Shown: one piece after another, positions 11,769 to 47,286 of the stretch
How positions within the stretch are numbered: the stretch's first letter is position 1
How the letters are laid out: every line of letters starts with the position of its first letter
Source: Hymenobacter sp. YIM 151858-1
GTDB lineage: Bacteria; Bacteroidota; Bacteroidia; Cytophagales; Hymenobacteraceae
Direction of reading: 5' to 3'
DNA length: 64,000 nt
Assembly: GCF_025979705.1 (NCBI RefSeq)
Contig: NZ_CP110136.1
Span: forward strand, 1,364,001-1,428,000
Program-made: the position numbers and the translations under genes
The notes under the pieces: generated by a model
The model's input: the letters and a program-made list of their open reading frames with translations, nothing else
Databases searched by the model: none
What the model was told of the DNA's origin: nothing

Positions 11769-12545
11769 ATGCGTTTAGCAGCTTTACTCACGGGCACCTT
11801 GCTCACTGTTTCGCTCGCAGCGGCTGCGCAGGCCCCCGGCACGCCCGAGGCCGACCTGAAAGCAGGCCGCGAATTATTTGCTGCCAAAAACTTCGACAAC
11901 GCCGCCCGCCGCTTCGAGGCCGTAAGCCGCAGCGCACCCAACCATGCCGAGGCGCAGCTGCTCCTGGGCCAGTGCTACACCGAGCTGGGCCGCTATGCCG
12001 AAGCCCGCACCGCCCTGGCCAAAGCTACCGAGCTCGACGCCGGCCTGAAACCCCGCGCTACCGAGTACCTGGCCCTGATTGACACCCGCGAAAAAGGCGC
12101 CGATGGTGCCCGCAGCAAGGCCGAGGCCGAGGCGGCGGCCGTGCGCGCACGTGCGGCCGCCGCCCTCCGCGCCCGCGCCGAGGCCGAAGCCGCGGCCAGA
12201 AACACCGCCTTCAGCGCGCCCGTGGCCGCCGCGCCGCTGGTGTACGGCGTGTATACCTGCTCTTTCGACAACTGGGACGCCGCCAGCCAACGCTTTACCT
12301 CCGTACCCAAAGGCGCGTTCGAGCTGAATGCCAACGGTACCTACCGCTACCTCGATGGCAGCGCCAGCGGCCGCTACACCTACAACGCCCAAACTCGCCA
12401 GCTCATCTGGATTACCGGCTACTTCGCCGAAGCCGGCAAGCCCAAAACCACCTTCGCGCCGGGCGAGAAAGTGTCGCAGCTGAACATCGAGTTCAGCACC
12501 GATAAAGGCCCGCAGCGTTGGTCGTGCGGGTGCAACAGCAAGTAA
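11769..12545 (+). CDS. Exported TPR protein with Ala-rich helix and C-terminal beta domain
   Basis: The 258-residue protein has a signal peptide (MRLAALLTGTLLTVSLAAAA) and two TPR repeats at about 30-100, including AEAQLLLGQCYTELGRYAEA. A highly charged Ala/Glu/Arg helix covers 115-155. A beta-rich C-terminal domain of about 90 residues follows (ELNANGTYRYLDGSASGRY), ending in a CGC motif. TPR domains bind proteins; the C-terminal domain resembles small domains that describe a scaffold or lipocalin-like strand set but was not identified. It is probably periplasmic. A perfect hairpin containing two CCTAGG motifs terminates it. Confidence 0.72.
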   Translation: MRLAALLTGTLLTVSLAAAAQAPGTPEADLKAGRELFAAKNFDNAARRFEAVSRSAPNHAEAQLLLGQCYTELGRYAEARTALAKATELDAGLKPRATEYLALIDTREKGADGARSKAEAEAAAVRARAAAALRARAEAEAAARNTAFSAPVAAAPLVYGVYTCSFDNWDAASQRFTSVPKGAFELNANGTYRYLDGSASGRYTYNAQTRQLIWITGYFAEAGKPKTTFAPGEKVSQLNIEFSTDKGPQRWSCGCNSK

Positions 12546-12547
12546 CC

Positions 12548-12592
12548 CCAAACACAAAGCCCTAGGTTGTTCACCTAGGGCTTTGTGTTTGG
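12548..12592. terminator. 20-bp perfect terminator stem built on two CCTAGG copies
   Basis: Bases 12548-12567 and 12573-12592 are perfectly complementary around a 5-base loop. The upper stem is CCCTAGGT/ACCTAGGG and the lower stem is CCAAACACAAAG/CTTTGTGTTTGG. It lies between convergent genes and can end both transcripts. Confidence 0.8.
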
Positions 12593-12620
12593 AGCAGGCA
12601 ACGAAGCCGTTTGTGCCCGG

Positions 12621-13385
12621 CTATTCGTTTTTGGCGCTTGCCGCCAGCGAGTTCGAATAGGCAATGATCTGCGCTAGGTGGTGCGGGAATACAAAAGTGA
12701 GGTTGTTTGCCCGGGCGTACTGAATCAATTGCTTGGCCTGCTGGCCGTAGTGTTTTTTTAGTTGACTTTTGGGGTGCACCAGCTGCACAAATTTATCCTT
12801 GGTGTACAGGTACAATTTCGGCCTGGTTTCGCCGGCCATCGGCATCTTGGCACGCGCGACGGAGTAAAGGCCATTCGGGTTGCCCAACACCAACATCTCG
12901 CGTTGCAACAGGCTAACAGGGCCGGTTACCAGTTCTTCGAAAAAGACCGGCGTTGGCCGCGTGTATGCCCGCTTTTTCTGCCACAAATACGTCCGGTAAA
13001 CGCGAACTTCGGTTGTATCAAACTTACCTATGTGGTGTTTGGGAATGAATGCCGGATGATCGGCCGTCATTTCCCAAGGCGAGCCGCCACGCATCTGCCG
13101 GTTAAGCTGCTTGGATTGAGGATCAGCATTGTAATGCGACAGGCTACCTTTTACGGCAAACACCGCTATTGACGAAGCTGGAAAGGTTTTGATGGCCCCG
13201 TCCGGCATGGTTACCATCAGCACGTTTTTATCAACGTGCAGCACCAGTGGCCCGCGCAGGGTGTCGCCAGTGGTGGTGATAACCGTTGAGCCGGCAAAGT
13301 GCTGAATCAGCTGCGTTTGGGCACAAACCCTGGCGCTGCATAAAGCCAACCCGCTAAGCAATAGAAAAGTAAACGTTTGACGCAT
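12621..13385 (-). CDS. Exported protein of unknown function, paralogue A of a tandem pair
   Basis: The 254-residue product has a signal peptide (MRQTFTFLLLSGLALCSARV, cleavage near VCAQ). It shares a clear pattern with the next gene: GDTLRGPLVLHVDKNVL followed by TMPDG, then VRVYRTYLW, FFEELVTGPVSLLQRE and a C-terminal QLIQYARANNLTF...IIAYSNSL. This marks a tandem duplication. The first domain looks like a small beta-barrel seen in Bacteroidota exported proteins that carry a 'GDTLRG' strand; no named function was recognised. It is notably less GC-rich than its neighbour, so the copies have diverged in composition as well as sequence. Confidence 0.75.
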   Translation of the reverse strand: MRQTFTFLLLSGLALCSARVCAQTQLIQHFAGSTVITTTGDTLRGPLVLHVDKNVLMVTMPDGAIKTFPASSIAVFAVKGSLSHYNADPQSKQLNRQMRGGSPWEMTADHPAFIPKHHIGKFDTTEVRVYRTYLWQKKRAYTRPTPVFFEELVTGPVSLLQREMLVLGNPNGLYSVARAKMPMAGETRPKLYLYTKDKFVQLVHPKSQLKKHYGQQAKQLIQYARANNLTFVFPHHLAQIIAYSNSLAASAKNE

Positions 13386-13518
13386 AAGCGAGCTTAGTAT
13401 TGAGGTATTGAAGGTAAAAACGTAATTAAACTAAGCTCAACAATAGTGCCATGCGTACCGCATTGGTTTCGCTAATGGGCCCGCCGCAGCTGCTCATCCG
13501 GAGTTAAACGCTCGTCAC

Positions 13519-14334
13519 CTAGGGCGCCGGGTGGCGCAGCGAGTTGGCGTAGTTCACGATAAACGCCAGCTCGTGGGCCTCGCTAAAGCTGAGGCGGTGT
13601 TGTTTGGCGTAACGCTCGATGCGGTCGGCTTCGGGCCGAAAATAGGCCAGCAAATCGCGCCGGGGGTTGCGCAGCATCACCACGTTACCCTCGGGCGTGC
13701 CCAGGAAAAACTGGTCGCGGATGGTGGTGTAGTAGCCCATGGTGCCCCGCGGCAACGCCGCTATGGGCGCGTAAGCGTAGTAGGGCCGAAACATGGGGTC
13801 GGCGGCGGAAACGGGGCGTTCGATGAGGGACTCGCGGCGCAGGAGCAGCACCGGGCCGCGGCTCAGCTGCTCGAAAAAGGCCGGCGAACGGAAATCGGAG
13901 TAATCGTTGCCGCGGTTCCAGCGGAAGGTCCGGAACACCCGTACCCGGGCCGTATCGGGCCGTTGGTGGCGGGCTTGCACGGGCAGTGGCCCCCAGCCCG
14001 GGTTGCCGTAGAAATACCCGCGCCGGGCGTCGTAAAAGTCGTAGTACTGATCGAAGTAGTTAGCCGGCTGGGCTTGCTCGCCGCGGGTAGCAAAGCTGGT
14101 TACGGCCAGCGCCGCCACCGTGCGTACCGAGTTGTCGGGCATACTCATCAGCAGCACGTCGCGGTCGGTGTGCAGGGCGGCGGGGCCGCGCAAAGTGTCG
14201 CCGGAGGTAAGCACTACCGTAGCGGCATCAAACTGCTGCACCAGGTTGCGCTGACCTAGGGCACGGGGCGCAGCCAACCAGCCAGCTAAACAGAGCACCC
14301 CCAAAAGGCGCGCGGGTAGGCGGAGCGTTTTCAT
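13519..14334 (-). CDS. Exported protein of unknown function, paralogue B of a tandem pair
   Basis: The 271-residue protein starts at the ATG at 14334, giving a signal peptide (MKTLRLPARLLGVLCLAGWL). It aligns along its length with paralogue A: GDTLRGPAALHTDRDVLLMS, VRVFRTFRW, FFEQLSRGPVLLLRRE and RIERYAKQHRLSF...IVNYANSL. It differs by a Tyr/Gly-rich insert near 100-125 (NYFDQYYDFYDARRGYFYG). The stop TAG lies inside a CCTAGG motif. The start codon and first codons form one arm of a perfect 23-bp inverted repeat with the sequence upstream, which could hide the translation start. The gene follows ribBA in the same direction. Confidence 0.78.
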   Translation of the reverse strand: MKTLRLPARLLGVLCLAGWLAAPRALGQRNLVQQFDAATVVLTSGDTLRGPAALHTDRDVLLMSMPDNSVRTVAALAVTSFATRGEQAQPANYFDQYYDFYDARRGYFYGNPGWGPLPVQARHQRPDTARVRVFRTFRWNRGNDYSDFRSPAFFEQLSRGPVLLLRRESLIERPVSAADPMFRPYYAYAPIAALPRGTMGYYTTIRDQFFLGTPEGNVVMLRNPRRDLLAYFRPEADRIERYAKQHRLSFSEAHELAFIVNYANSLRHPAP

Positions 14335-14379
14335 AGCAGTATTAATATACAACAAAGAAAACGCTCCGCCTACCCGCGC
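14310..14379. repeat. Perfect 23-bp inverted repeat spanning a start codon
   Basis: Bases 14310-14332 are exactly complementary to 14357-14379, with a 24-base AT-rich loop. The left arm encodes the first signal-peptide residues of paralogue B, including two bases of its start codon. The right arm lies just past the ribBA stop and could act as the ribBA terminator. Confidence 0.85.
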
Positions 14380-14400
14380 TGGGGTGAGTTGGATATGGAA

Positions 14401-15654
14401 TTACTCGGCCGGCAGCGCTTCGGCGGCCGCCTGGGCCGGGTGCGGGCCGCGGTCCTTGGTCAGGATGGTATGGCCCAGCTTGTCGCGCTTGGTGGTCAGG
14501 TACCGCTCGTTGTGTTCGTTGGGCGTTACTTCAATGGCCACCGTGTCCACGATTTCGAGGCCGTAGCCGATGAGGCCGGTGCGCTTGCGGGGGTTGTTGG
14601 TGAGCAGGTGCAGCTTGTGCAGGCCCAGGTCGCGCAGGATTTGGGCGCCCACGCCGTAGTCACGCTCATCCATGCCGAAGCCCAGCTCCAGGTTGGCCTC
14701 CACGGTGTCGCGGCCTTGCTCCTGCAGCTTGTAGGCGCGCAGCTTGTTGAGCAAGCCAATGCCGCGGCCCTCCTGGTTCATGTACAGCAACACGCCGCGG
14801 CCTTCGCGCTCAATCTGCTCCATGGCGTGGTGCAGCTGCGGGCCGCAGTCGCAGCGGCACGAGCCGAAGATGTCGCCGGTTACGCACGAGGAGTGCACGC
14901 GCACGAGCACCGGCTCGTCGCCCGAAATGTCGCCTTTTACCAGGGCCAGGTGCTGGGCGCCGGTGCTGCGCTGGGTGTAGGCAATCAGGTCGAAGTCGCC
15001 CCACTGGGTGGGCATCTTCACCGAAATTTCGCGGTCGATGAGGCTTTCCTGCTTGAGGCGGTACTGAATCAGGTCTTGCACCGAAATCAGCTTCAGCCCC
15101 CAGCGGTTGGCAATTTCGCGCAGCTCGGCCAGGCGGGCCATTTCGCCGTCCTCCTTCAGGATTTCCACCAGCACCCCGGCCGGCTCGAAACCCGCCAGGC
15201 GGGCCAGGTCGATGGCGGCTTCGGTGTGGCCGGCGCGGCGCAGCACGCCTTCTTTGCGGGCTTTCAGCGGAAAAATGTGCCCCGGCTTGCCCAGCTCCTC
15301 GGGCTTGGTGTCGGGGTCGATGAGGGCCAGGATGGTTTTGCTGCGGTCGGAGGCCGAAATGCCGGTGGTTACGCCGTTTTTCAGCAAATCCACGGATACC
15401 GTGAAGGGCGTGGCGTGCAGCGCCGTGTTGCGGCCTACCATCAGCTCCAGCCCCAGCTCCTCGCAACGGTCTTCAATTAGCGGGGCACACACCAGGCCGC
15501 GGCCGTGGGTGGCCATAAAGTTGATGACTTCGGGCGTGGCGCAACGGGCTGCGCAAATAAAGTCGCCTTCATTCTCGCGGTCTTCGTCGTCCACAACTAC
15601 TACCACTTTACCGGCGCGGATGTCGGCAATGGCGTCTTCGATGGGGTCAAGCAT
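14401..15654 (-). CDS. ribBA: Bifunctional DHBP synthase / GTP cyclohydrolase II
   Basis: RibBA supplies both precursors of riboflavin in the cytoplasm. The N-terminal half makes 3,4-dihydroxy-2-butanone 4-phosphate from ribulose 5-phosphate. The C-terminal half opens GTP to the pyrimidine precursor. The start at ATG 15654 ([16 protein letters not shown]) gives 417 residues. [10 protein letters not shown] near 23-32 holds the acidic metal site of RibB. In the RibA half, [18 protein letters not shown] carries the three zinc Cys, and EGRGIGL with DTVEAN follows. Both halves keep their catalytic motifs. No FMN riboswitch was seen upstream. Confidence 0.96.
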
Positions 15655-15804
15655 GGCTTGCAGGATATGAGCGGCCGGCCCCGGGGAACCGGTCGGAAGT
15701 GGTTTTCGGGCTGACAACCATCAGCGGCCGGGCGAAGTTACACAGGCGCCGCCTTTGTCATCGTTTGGGCGGGCGTTTCGGTTCCCGAAAACTGCGCCCT
15801 GCGG

Positions 15805-15843
15805 CCTAGGTGCCCGGGCTTATGTTGCGGCCGGGCACCTAGG
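15805..15843. terminator. Hairpin with CCTAGG at both stem bases
   Basis: CCTAGGTGCCCGG (15805-15817) pairs with CCGGGCACCTAGG (15831-15843) around a 13-base loop. It lies downstream of the leftward glycosyltransferase operon and may terminate it, although no T run follows. Confidence 0.6.
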
Positions 15844-15895
15844 GACGCGGGCCCGACCAAGGCTACGCGCCGAAAATCAGCCGCAAAGCCCTGCC

Positions 15896-17089
15896 CTACC
15901 TCGCCTGCTGAAAGCGCTGCGTGGGCTGCCACACCGTTGTCCGAATGCCGCGCACGTAGCGCCAGAAACCCAGGGCCAGCGCCGCGTTCATGCTGTAGAA
16001 GTGCGTGATGAAGCGCAACAGCCGCAAGTGCACGCCCGCTTGCTTCAGGGCCTTATCGAGCAGCAGCAGCAAGGGCAGCGCCAGCTGGCCGGCCAGCATC
16101 AGGCCATAAAACCAATGCGCGCCCCGCGCCACCAGCAGCGCGTTGGCACCTAGGGCCAGCAGCAGCAGCAGCGGCGTAAGCCAGCGCAGTACCTTATGCG
16201 ACCAGAACGCGAACGGAATGCCGCGCCACACCGGCCACAGCAGGCCGGCAAACGCGCGCAGGTTCTGGAAGTTGCCGGCCGCAATGCGGGCTTTGCGCCG
16301 GAACTCCTCGGGCAGGTGGTCCGATACGTCCTCGTAGCACACCGCCTCCAGCTCGTTAATGGCCTGGTACCCATCGCGCAGCACGGCCATGGTAATGTAG
16401 AAGTCATCGACCAGGAAAGCCTGCGGCGCGGGGTGGTAGCAGGCGCGGCGCACGGCAAAACAGCCGCCGAACGCGCCCATCATGCCGCCCCACACTACGC
16501 CCTCCTGGTATTTAATCAGGTTTTCGCGCTCGAGGTAGGCTTTTTCCTGGCCCGAAATGCCCTCGGCCCGGTGCTCGGGGTTGATGATGTTGCCGCCCAC
16601 CAGCCCGATTCGCGGGTTTTGGAAGTGCTTGACGAGGTGGTACAGCGTATCGGGTGCAAAAAACACGTTGGCATCGGTTAGCACCAGCACCGGGGCGGTG
16701 GCCTGCCGCGACAACGCATCAATTACACCGGGCTTGCCCTGCCGCTGCGTGTAGGCCTCGAAGCGCAACTGCGGAAACTCGGCCTGCAGCTTGGTTACTA
16801 GGGCGTTGGTGCCGTCGGAGGAGCAATCGGAGCCGATGAAGAACGTAAGCCGATCGAGCGGGTACGTGGTACGGAAAGTGCTGCGGATTTTTTCCTCAAT
16901 TACTTGCTCCTCGTTGTGCACGGCCAGCAGCACATCCACCGCCGGCAGTTCAGCACTTTGCGGCGCATACACTTGCTGGTTTTGCCTGCGGCCCCGGGCC
17001 AGGCGGCTCAGCAACACCGGAAACAGCACGTAGGTGTGCGCTACCAGCACAATGCTCACCCACAACAGGATGGCCAGGGCTAGGTTCAT
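15896..17089 (-). CDS. Membrane-bound family 2 glycosyltransferase
   Basis: The 397-residue protein has one N-terminal membrane helix (residues 1-25), a GT-A domain at about 50-280 and three C-terminal helices. The GT2 motifs are VDVLLAVHNEE near 50, the acidic pair in VLVLTDANVFF, and LVDDFYITMAVLRDGY, followed by an Arg/Lys-rich stretch (EEFRRKARIAAGN) in the place of the usual QxxRW. It probably transfers a sugar to a growing envelope polysaccharide at the inner membrane. Its start overlaps the stop of the upstream glycosyltransferase by 4 bases (ATGA), so they are translationally coupled. Confidence 0.88.
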   Translation of the reverse strand: MNLALAILLWVSIVLVAHTYVLFPVLLSRLARGRRQNQQVYAPQSAELPAVDVLLAVHNEEQVIEEKIRSTFRTTYPLDRLTFFIGSDCSSDGTNALVTKLQAEFPQLRFEAYTQRQGKPGVIDALSRQATAPVLVLTDANVFFAPDTLYHLVKHFQNPRIGLVGGNIINPEHRAEGISGQEKAYLERENLIKYQEGVVWGGMMGAFGGCFAVRRACYHPAPQAFLVDDFYITMAVLRDGYQAINELEAVCYEDVSDHLPEEFRRKARIAAGNFQNLRAFAGLLWPVWRGIPFAFWSHKVLRWLTPLLLLLALGANALLVARGAHWFYGLMLAGQLALPLLLLLDKALKQAGVHLRLLRFITHFYSMNAALALGFWRYVRGIRTTVWQPTQRFQQAR

Positions 17090-18471: not shown

Positions 18472-19494
18472 TTACCCGCGGTACTCAATAACGGAGCGCC
18501 GGATTTGCTCGTCGGTGCCGAGCAGCAGCAGCACGTCGCCGGGGCCGGGGCGCGTGTCGGCGCTGGGGCTGACGAGGAAATGCCCGGCGGCGTCTTTCAG
18601 GCCGATAACGGTGGCGCCGGTGCGCGAGCGGATGTCCAGCTCGCGGATGGAGCGGCCGCGCAGCTCATGCCGTAAGTCGGTAAACGTCAGCTCCTCCAGG
18701 CGCAGGCGGTTCGGGCCCAAGCCGTTGATCATGTCGAGGAAGCGAATGACCTCGGGGCGCATCACCAGGTTGGCCATGTGCGAGCCGCCAATCTCGTCGG
18801 GCATCACCACCGAGTCGGCGCCGGCGCGCATCAGCTTGCTTTCGGAGGTTTTCAGCGAAGCCCGCGAAATGATTTTCAGGCGCGGGTTCAGCTCGCGGGC
18901 CGTAAGCGTAACGAACACGTTGTCGGCATCCTTGGGCAGGGCCGAAATAAGGGCGCGGGCCCGCTCGATGCCGGCTTGGCGCAGGGTTTCGTCGAGGGTG
19001 GCGTCGCCGAACACCACGGGCACGGCGTTATCGCCCAGGGTTTCGGCCGCGAGGCGCATCAGCTCCTGGTTTTGCTCCACCACCACCACTTTGGCCCCGC
19101 TGGCGCGCAGCTCATGAAACGCCTTGCTGCCGTTGCGCCCAAAGCCGCACACAATCACGTGGTCCTGAAAAGCGCGGATTTCCTGATCGGTCATAAACAT
19201 CTTGAACAAGTTGCGCAGCTCGCCATCAAACAAATACTGCGTCAGCACCGACACCAGGTACGCCACCATCAGCAGGTTGTACATGATGTAGCCCGACACG
19301 AACAGCCGGCCGGCATCGGAAAGCGGCCGCACCTCCCCGAAACCCGTGGTGGAGATGGTGATGATGGTCATGTAAAACGCCTCGAGCCAGTTGTACTGCT
19401 CGATGTACATGAAGCCCGCCATGCCAATGCCCAAACTGAGCACCGACAACACAATGGCCAGCATGAGGCGGCGGAGGTTGGCGCGTTTCCACAT
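18472..19494 (-). CDS. Two-helix potassium channel with RCK/TrkA domains
   Basis: The protein of about 340 residues has two membrane helices (near 10-30 and 65-90) around a pore loop with the selectivity filter TTGFGEV at 49-55. A RCK N domain follows, with the nucleotide-binding VIVCGFGRNG near 113, then VVFGDATLDETLRQAGIE. A RCK C domain ends the protein (RPGPGDVLLLLGTDEQ). This is the MthK/YugO-like channel layout, gated by ligand binding at the RCK domain. A GTG lies at 19506, but it coincides with a TACCTTCG promoter element, so the ATG at 19494 is chosen. It appears to be monocistronic. Confidence 0.92.
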   Translation of the reverse strand: MWKRANLRRLMLAIVLSVLSLGIGMAGFMYIEQYNWLEAFYMTIITISTTGFGEVRPLSDAGRLFVSGYIMYNLLMVAYLVSVLTQYLFDGELRNLFKMFMTDQEIRAFQDHVIVCGFGRNGSKAFHELRASGAKVVVVEQNQELMRLAAETLGDNAVPVVFGDATLDETLRQAGIERARALISALPKDADNVFVTLTARELNPRLKIISRASLKTSESKLMRAGADSVVMPDEIGGSHMANLVMRPEVIRFLDMINGLGPNRLRLEELTFTDLRHELRGRSIRELDIRSRTGATVIGLKDAAGHFLVSPSADTRPGPGDVLLLLGTDEQIRRSVIEYRG

Positions 19495-22971: not shown

Positions 22972-22977
22972 CGAACT

Positions 22978-23031
22978 CCCCTCCTCAGATGAGGAGGGGA
23001 TGTTGCGCCTTCGGCGCAACAGGGGTGGTTG
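22978..23031 (+). repeat. Two-hairpin interspersed repeat, copy 1
   Basis: A perfect stem CCCCTCCTC/GAGGAGGGG (22978-22999) is followed by a second stem GTTGCGCC/GGCGCAAC and then GGGGTGGTTG. The same order occurs inverted at 23379-23431. The loop and second-stem sequence differ while pairing is kept. Confidence 0.8.
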
Positions 23032-23378: not shown

Positions 23379-23431
23379 CAACCACCCCAGCGGCAGTAAA
23401 CTGCCGCGTCCCCTCCTCAGCTGAGGAGGGG
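23379..23431 (-). repeat. Two-hairpin interspersed repeat, copy 2 (inverted)
   Basis: Read on the minus strand it gives CCCCTCCTC/GAGGAGGGG, then the stem CGGCAG/CTGCCG, then GGGGTGGTTG, the same order as copy 1. Together the copies bracket the repeat cluster between dnaG and mrp. Confidence 0.8.
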
Positions 23432-23507
23432 AGTTTGCGGTTCTGGGCCGTCGAGCAAACTCCGACTGCGTTTTGCGGGTTTTCAGCTTCGGCCACCGAA
23501 TCACAAT

Positions 23508-27324: not shown

Positions 27325-27450
27325 TGTAGCGCGGAAATCCGTTCCGCGACGCGCCTAAAGCGCGTATGTGGTGCTGCGCGGTACCGAATACGCGCTTTAG
27401 GCGCGTCGCGGAACCGAAGGTCGGCGTAGCCAACGGATTTCCGCGCTACA
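27325..27450. mobile_element. 126-bp MITE-like hairpin element
   Basis: The ends form a perfect 19-bp inverted repeat (27325-27343 and 27432-27450, TGTAGCGCGGAAATCCGTT). Inside, 24 bases at 27344-27367 pair perfectly with 27388-27411, leaving a 20-base unpaired stretch on the right arm. The element has no reading frame. It fills the space between two convergent genes, so it may also end transcription. Confidence 0.75.
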
Positions 27451-46934: not shown

Positions 46935-47220
46935 GTGATAGGTGTGAAGTGAGGTGATGTGCGTGCAATCGAAATCACGTTTTCGGCAGGCGGAGTACCA
47001 ATCTCACCACTTAAGGCGCAGGGGGCTCATTGGAGGAGTAATAGTTAATCTATAAATGATCCTGTTGCTTACCAAGCTCGTCCCGCTTCAAGCTGGAGTA
47101 TGGTTTATGGGCGCTACCTCACAACCAATTTTTATAAAACTCTGCATTTCTGATACTTACCCTTTTGATCAAATAGCATATTGCGCTAATATTTTTTCAA
47201 AGAACTTTACCTGCCGCGCA
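46935..47220. other. AT-rich intergenic region, no gene recognised
   Basis: The sequence between the lipoprotein start and the ald terminator is locally AT-rich (for example ATTTTTATAAAACTCTGC). No open frame with family character, RNA fold or repeat was found. Confidence 0.45.
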
Positions 47221-47268
47221 CAAACGGCCCGGCCCGGATGCACAGGTGCATCCGGGCCGGGCCGTTTG
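47221..47268 (-). terminator. Perfect 23-bp hairpin ending the tsaE-ald operon
   Basis: CAAACGGCCCGGCCCGGATG plus CAC (47221-47243) is exactly complementary to 47246-47268. It lies 18 bases past the leftward ald stop. The stem is very long for a terminator and its loop is only two bases. Confidence 0.75.
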
Positions 47269-47286
47269 TAAAGCATAGCTGTAAGC

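Follow-up and report, generated by a model that had tools for sequence, protein, structure and literature searches.

Why should the first codons of a gene form one half of a perfect hairpin, the other half of which lies in the spacer behind a neighboring gene? This question is raised by ribBA and the gene that follows it, here called gene B, in Hymenobacter sp. YIM 151858-1. The window analyzed is a stretch of 64,000 nucleotides from the genome of this strain (the source genome, G000). The answer that we favor, with moderate confidence and on the basis of sequence comparison and folding, is that the hairpin silences gene B in RNA that reads through from ribBA, and leaves the transcript from gene B's own promoter readable. 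The parts of the locus are the following.

14401 to 15654, minus strand: ribBA, the upstream gene, of vitamin B2 synthesis, encoding DHBP synthase plus GTP cyclohydrolase II (Pfam PF00926 and PF00925); stop codon at 14401-14403, putative start giving 417 amino acids.
14357 to 14379, minus strand: 5′ hairpin arm, located between ribBA and gene B and recognized by the exact repeat, folding, covariation with the coding arm and conservation.
14333 to 14356, minus strand: loop of 24 nt, in which lie a promoter-like box and the first two letters, A and U, of the start codon.
14342 to 14349, minus strand: TATATTAA, a candidate box resembling the Bacteroidota -7 element (consensus TAHHTTTG), proposed from counts in orthologues.
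14310 to 14332, minus strand: 3′ hairpin arm, made up of coding bases of gene B that run from the G of its start codon through the first base of codon 9; recognized from sequence and folding.
13519 to 14334, minus strand: gene B, an open reading frame of 271 amino acids with a signal-peptide-like N terminus and no match in Pfam or NCBIfam.
12621 to 13385, minus strand: paralogue A, the next gene downstream of B, with a weaker 9-bp inverted repeat of its own just ahead of the ATG.

The arms 14310-14332 and 14357-14379 are exact reverse complements at all 23 positions, which confirms the 23-bp repeat described in a sequence-only reading of this DNA. The placement given there is also correct. One arm encodes the first codons of gene B, starting with the third base of the ATG (14334-14332, minus strand), with the stem covering codons 1 to 8 (MKTLRLPA), and the other begins 21 nt past the ribBA stop, in a ribBA-B spacer of 66 nt. 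Extended without gaps, the pairing of the arms reaches 33 nt at 88%. Taken as RNA, the plus-strand letters of 14280-14420 fold at -69.3 kcal/mol (z = -7.0, equaled by none of 200 dinucleotide shuffles). On the minus strand, that of ribBA and gene B, the 70-nt hairpin amounts to -53.9 kcal/mol, and the region from -60 to +40 around the gene B ATG gives z = -10.1 against 100 mononucleotide shuffles. When loops of 3-60 nt were allowed, the longest perfect inverted repeat measured 10 to 15 bp in 30 windows drawn from a first-order Markov model, and 27 bp in the real one. Two further repeats in the window are at least as long as that at gene B, at 27341-27414 (27 bp) and at 47220-47269 (23 bp), both away from gene starts. 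The former, a perfect repeat with a loop of 20 nt and no T-run, sits between convergent genes. Elsewhere in the window, a single 10-bp palindrome occurs twice, at 22977-23000 and 23409-23432 (TCCCCTCCTC and GAGGAGGGGA), 432 bp apart.

Long perfect stems are frequent in the source genome, in which 121 repeats of at least 14 bp were counted in 864 kb, 52 of them between convergent genes. Thus, the length of the stem is not special by itself. What is special here is its position and its build: a gene start supplies one of the arms, and the A-T pairs and a long loop are on the inside. We rejected the idea of a mobile or repeated element, such as a REP-like sequence or an IS end, because the arms are single-copy; a search of the source genome allowing up to three mismatches returned the two arms only. 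A known RNA family was likewise rejected, since none of the 13 matches obtained with Rfam 15 over positions 13300-16000 reached the curated score of its family. Those sub-threshold matches that fall over the hairpin are miRNA-shaped.

A scan for stems spanning start codons among 1,061 open reading frames (a 1.264-Mb sample of the source genome, window included) ranked the gene B hairpin highest. The two runners-up that were inspected, at loci L111 and L034, are spacer hairpins ahead of a likely true start. The scan is incomplete, in that the known case in a related genome, G001 (locus L133, in the sample), is not listed, probably because a longer antisense frame displaced its open reading frame. 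At L034 (8244-8333, at roughly 1.208 Mb on contig C1 of the source genome), some 20 pairs form a stem around a 50-nt loop, with the 3′ arm just ahead of the likely start; judging from the protein letters, we take the frame behind this spacer to be hisH-like and the upstream frame to be hisB-like. At L111 (about 18600-18700), a 22-bp hairpin is followed directly by a promoter-like TATAC stretch, between what are presumably an outer-membrane-barrel-like gene and a short-chain dehydrogenase gene. L036, another high scorer, is terminator-like in the list of genome repeats. In addition, a scattered family of palindromic repeats, GTCATGCTGAGC...GAAGCATCTC, occurs in spacers of the source genome and of G001 (L028, L036, L044, L063, L109 and L131).

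Among the paralogues of gene B, the repeat ahead of paralogue A, GAGCTTAGT...ACTAAGCTC (window 13390-13438; L017, L018), has other letters in G004 yet still pairs there, and it is disrupted in G005, whose copy of gene A contains an in-frame TAG. At 9 bp, this repeat is too short to count as evidence. A hairpin shared with paralogue C was considered and is unproven: G005 shows a moderate start stem there, and no such fold was found in G000, G004 or G001.

ribBA is present in all eight same-genus genomes searched (G000-G007, where G005 is Solirubrum puertoriconensis), and, counting paralogues, 156 of 200 genomes of the family have a homologue of gene B. Gene B lies directly after ribBA, at a distance of 45 to 66 nt, in four of the eight (G000, G004, G005 and G001), and each of these four has the hairpin. 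Their start regions fold with z of -7.0 to -10.1 (mononucleotide shuffles), and the energy of the stem is about -42 to -54 kcal/mol across the four species. In G007, gene B follows ribBA after 362 nt, behind a terminator-like hairpin (AAAAAGCCC...GGGCTTTTT, a stack of 10 pairs). In G002 and G006 a convergent frame faces ribBA, and hairpins of 39 pairs (G002, L099) and 24 pairs (G006, L097), each including one G-U, immediately follow the ribBA stop. In G003 a co-directional paralogue lies 106 nt behind ribBA, and the 130 nt after the stop hold no stack of more than 6 pairs.

The sequence-only reading had looked to relatives that keep gene B and lack the upstream arm, with expression unchanged, as evidence against its proposal. 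As far as sequence is concerned, such relatives are common: 33 of the 37 gene B loci examined are without the hairpin (z -3.4 to +2.0). They include all seven tightly spaced ribBA-B junctions of another genus, g5 (z -2.6 to +1.5), of which at least three are near-copies of one another; one junction counted as tight, L079, has a ribBA gap of -3 by one measure and of 39 by another. These seven junctions argue most strongly against the hairpin being generally required. In the count of loci, L022 was omitted as a duplicate of L002, and L005 was included; both were omitted from the count of promoter-like boxes given below.

Where the hairpin does occur, it is kept while its letters change. In the alignment of the four species, 95.7% of the 92 cells over the 23 pairs are paired, and 8 of the 23 pairs show changes on both sides, values that none of 500 shuffles matched; controls with slid partners gave 0 to 3 double-sided changes. 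The number of further pair types was equaled by 42 of the 500 shuffles. About seven of the eight double changes are meaningful, because columns 2/69 sit in the outer part of the stem, in which G001 is not truly paired (three of its four cells in the four outermost columns are mismatched). G001, the most divergent of the four and with a B protein that is about 60% identical, has a perfect 24-bp stem of its own, with other letters and with the whole ATG now inside. Its inner 19 aligned pairs are Watson-Crick throughout, and in four of these both letters have been replaced; a G001 arm set against the partner of another species forms 13 to 15 Watson-Crick pairs, versus 20 with its own. Relative to G000, the coding arm of G005 carries four C-to-T changes, each of which alters an amino acid (MKTLRLPAR to MKMLRLSVC). 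Two of them are matched by changes in the spacer arm and two become G-U; no pair is lost and all 23 stay. Two more G-U pairs in G005 stem from changes in the spacer arm, and G004 has one A-C mismatch. The five one-sided changes comprise four G-U and one A-C (binomial ~0.19), a proportion that leans toward pairing in RNA over DNA and is not decisive. Among G000, G004 and G005, 19 to 21 of the 23 positions of the 5′ arm are identical; the 24 nt immediately upstream of it show 11 to 14 matches in 24 to 26 aligned columns. That is, the noncoding arm is better conserved than the adjoining upstream bases, which have decayed.

The proposed division of labor between two transcripts depends on where the message of gene B begins. 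The first base of TATATTAA lies 15 nt before the ATG, in the loop. The motif TANNTT begins exactly at -15 in 19 of 36 gene B orthologues, some of which are near-copies, and between -21 and -11 in 23 of the 36, compared with a mean of 1.5 and a maximum of 6 in mononucleotide shuffles. In the source genome, the box reads TATATTAA, not TATATTTG. Over 554 open reading frames of that genome, each taken from its first ATG, boxes show only a mild rise near -17 to -12, perhaps owing to poor start calls; the argument for a promoter is therefore drawn from the gene B orthologues alone. A scan for sigma-70 promoters over 12500-16000 found none (mean of 0.7 in shuffles). For Flavobacterium johnsoniae, PMC6847099 places the -7 element, TAHHTTTG, so that it begins 12 nt before the transcription start, and reports that 87% of leaders exceed 10 nt. 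With this spacing, the gene B mRNA is predicted to start near 14337, about 3 nt before the ATG and past the 5′ arm; given the leader lengths, so nearly leaderless a start would belong to a minority type in F. johnsoniae. Gene B's own mRNA should, accordingly placed, begin beyond the 5′ arm. When the predicted own transcripts were folded from -3 over 63 nt, the AUG was unpaired in G000, G005 and G001, and the A of the AUG was paired in G004.

The hairpin would thereby sort RNAs by their place of origin, acting as a lock on RNA that started upstream and on no other. We infer that some RNA begun at or before ribBA reads through into gene B. Such RNA would carry both arms and fold, hiding the region of the gene B start codon and the first eight codons, and ribosomes could then not start at B. 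RNA from gene B's own promoter, presumably started by the box in the loop, would be without the 5′ arm, stay open, and be translated nearly leaderless.

Might the hairpin instead terminate transcription of ribBA, its 3′ half falling within gene B, with gene B's own transcripts escaping for want of the 5′ arm? This explanation, which we judge unlikely, differs from a block on translation only in the step that is blocked, and both could act. Terminator-like hairpins do follow ribBA in G006, G002 and G007, and a simple terminator scan found no other site in the 66-nt spacer, but the same scan yields a weak site (7 pairs) at 14311-14295, within gene B and right after the 3′ arm. In G001, TTTTT comes immediately after the stem; in G000, G004 and G005, however, GCC intervenes, followed by T-runs of 4, at most 2, and 4, respectively. 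Over the first 8 nt after the stem, the number of T is 4 in G000, 3 in G004, 4 in G005 and 6 in G001. Because only 26 of the 52 convergent-gene repeats of the source genome have a T-run of at least 4, the weak T-run is no strong objection to a terminator. The build of the hairpin fits less well, in that the A-T pairs stand at the loop end of the stem, not at its outer end, and in that a loop of 24 nt is long for a terminator (45 of the same 52 repeats have loops of at most 15 nt, and 4 have loops above 24 nt). As three of the four species are without a good U-tract, a block on translation seems likelier than termination. The sequence-only reading had proposed that the stem ends the ribBA transcript or blocks translation from it, and that a shorter transcript would be open; covariation in four species and the promoter-like box 15 nt before the ATG support the block and the open transcript, and the T counts make the ending of transcription the weaker part.

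The repeat could also be a functionless DNA palindrome, in which the first bases of gene B were copied into the spacer and perfection was maintained by template switching during replication. The perfect 24-bp repeat of G001, with its changed letters, is what such a process might produce, and the two origins allowed by the ribBA tree would agree with it. The coding arm also seems the older of the two, with the spacer arm having followed, because the coding start ATGAAAACGCTCCGCCT occurs in the hairpin-less locus L071 as well. This is compatible with the idea, raised from the sequence at the outset, that coding sequence was copied into the spacer, but the arms have since changed together, and the spacer holds no frozen copy. 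Moreover, the 23 pairs kept by G005 include four G-U, which are mismatches at the level of DNA, though G004 has one A-C, and the repeat stays at the start codon in four genomes, although the adjoining flank has decayed; we consider a functionless palindrome quite improbable. RNase III cuts long duplexes, and the length and perfection of this one would suit a processing site that separates the ribBA and gene B messages. Processing would leave unexplained why, in each of the four species, the start codon is found either within the stem or at the edge of the loop, and we give it very little credence. Finally, RNA thermometers hold a start site in a hairpin, as is the case here, and a switch responding to temperature, a ligand or a protein might open to express gene B from the ribBA transcript. 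Yet at -42 to -54 kcal/mol the stem would probably not melt under conditions that permit life, and no Rfam family was matched at its curated score; such a switch is, in our estimation, scarcely credible.

Silencing of gene B in ribBA read-through RNA thus remains our preferred explanation, and it invites the question of how the hairpin arose. In a tree of the ribBA protein, G001 is separate from G000, G004 and G005, and the hairpin label changes twice; because of these two label changes, two origins are possible, and a single origin is also compatible. A T-rich element, GCGTTTTC, lies ahead of the box and is also found in the hairpin-less loci L069 and L079. Being complementary to GAAAACGC, which lies at the gene B start, it could have seeded the stem. 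We offer, as a speculation that we judge unlikely, that the hairpin arose twice at the ribBA-B junction, once in the line of G000, G004 and G005 and once in that of G001, as the spacer was made complementary to an existing gene B start from the small seed GCGTTTTC, which already matched ATGAAAACGC. If so, Bacteroidota promoters beside MK(T) starts may be a nursery for self-sorting hairpins that silence read-through over leaderless genes. The locus would illustrate compactly how, in a phylum whose genes lack Shine-Dalgarno starts, packed neighbors may be kept apart with coding sequence as half of the lock. A noncoding sequence here tracks amino-acid replacements in the first residues of a putative signal peptide, a relationship that will be easy to check as genomes accrue.

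Among the literature matches listed, none described such a hairpin linked to ribBA. Its build can be compared with that of better-known systems. It shares with the terminator-like stems of the source genome the long perfect stem that is common in spacers, and differs from them in the length of the loop, the weak U-tract in three species, the A-T pairs on the loop side and the overlap with the next gene. In the protection of IS10-type transposases, the transposase start site is covered by a fold in read-through RNA from outside, and the arms derive from the ends of the mobile element. The likeness lies in the start site being folded in read-through RNA; the difference is that the arms at gene B are single-copy. 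For phage T4, long early transcripts of gene e (lysozyme), soc, 49 and I-TevI sequester the start region, and late promoters just upstream of the binding site of gene e produce RNA without the 5′ strand, which is well translated (PMC3014915). In Bacillus subtilis, a hairpin in read-through RNA has been proposed for sigG, and RNA made from the sigG promoter itself is described as unable to form it (PMC5942855). The T4 case turns on the timing of early and late phage promoters, whereas ribBA and gene B are chromosomal neighbors and the promoter of B is presumably an ordinary one. sigG is preceded by a leader and a ribosome-binding site and belongs to sporulation, whereas gene B, for which a Shine-Dalgarno sequence is not to be expected, has a predicted leader of about 3 nt; unlike that of sigG, moreover, the 3′ arm at gene B is coding sequence from the start codon on. 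Taken together, the gene B hairpin is of like build to those of T4 gene e and sigG, and differs in offering no Shine-Dalgarno target, in having a coding-sequence arm and in its predicted near-leaderless message. With its functional features being predicted ones, it resembles, and would belong with, the known start hairpins that silence read-through RNA.
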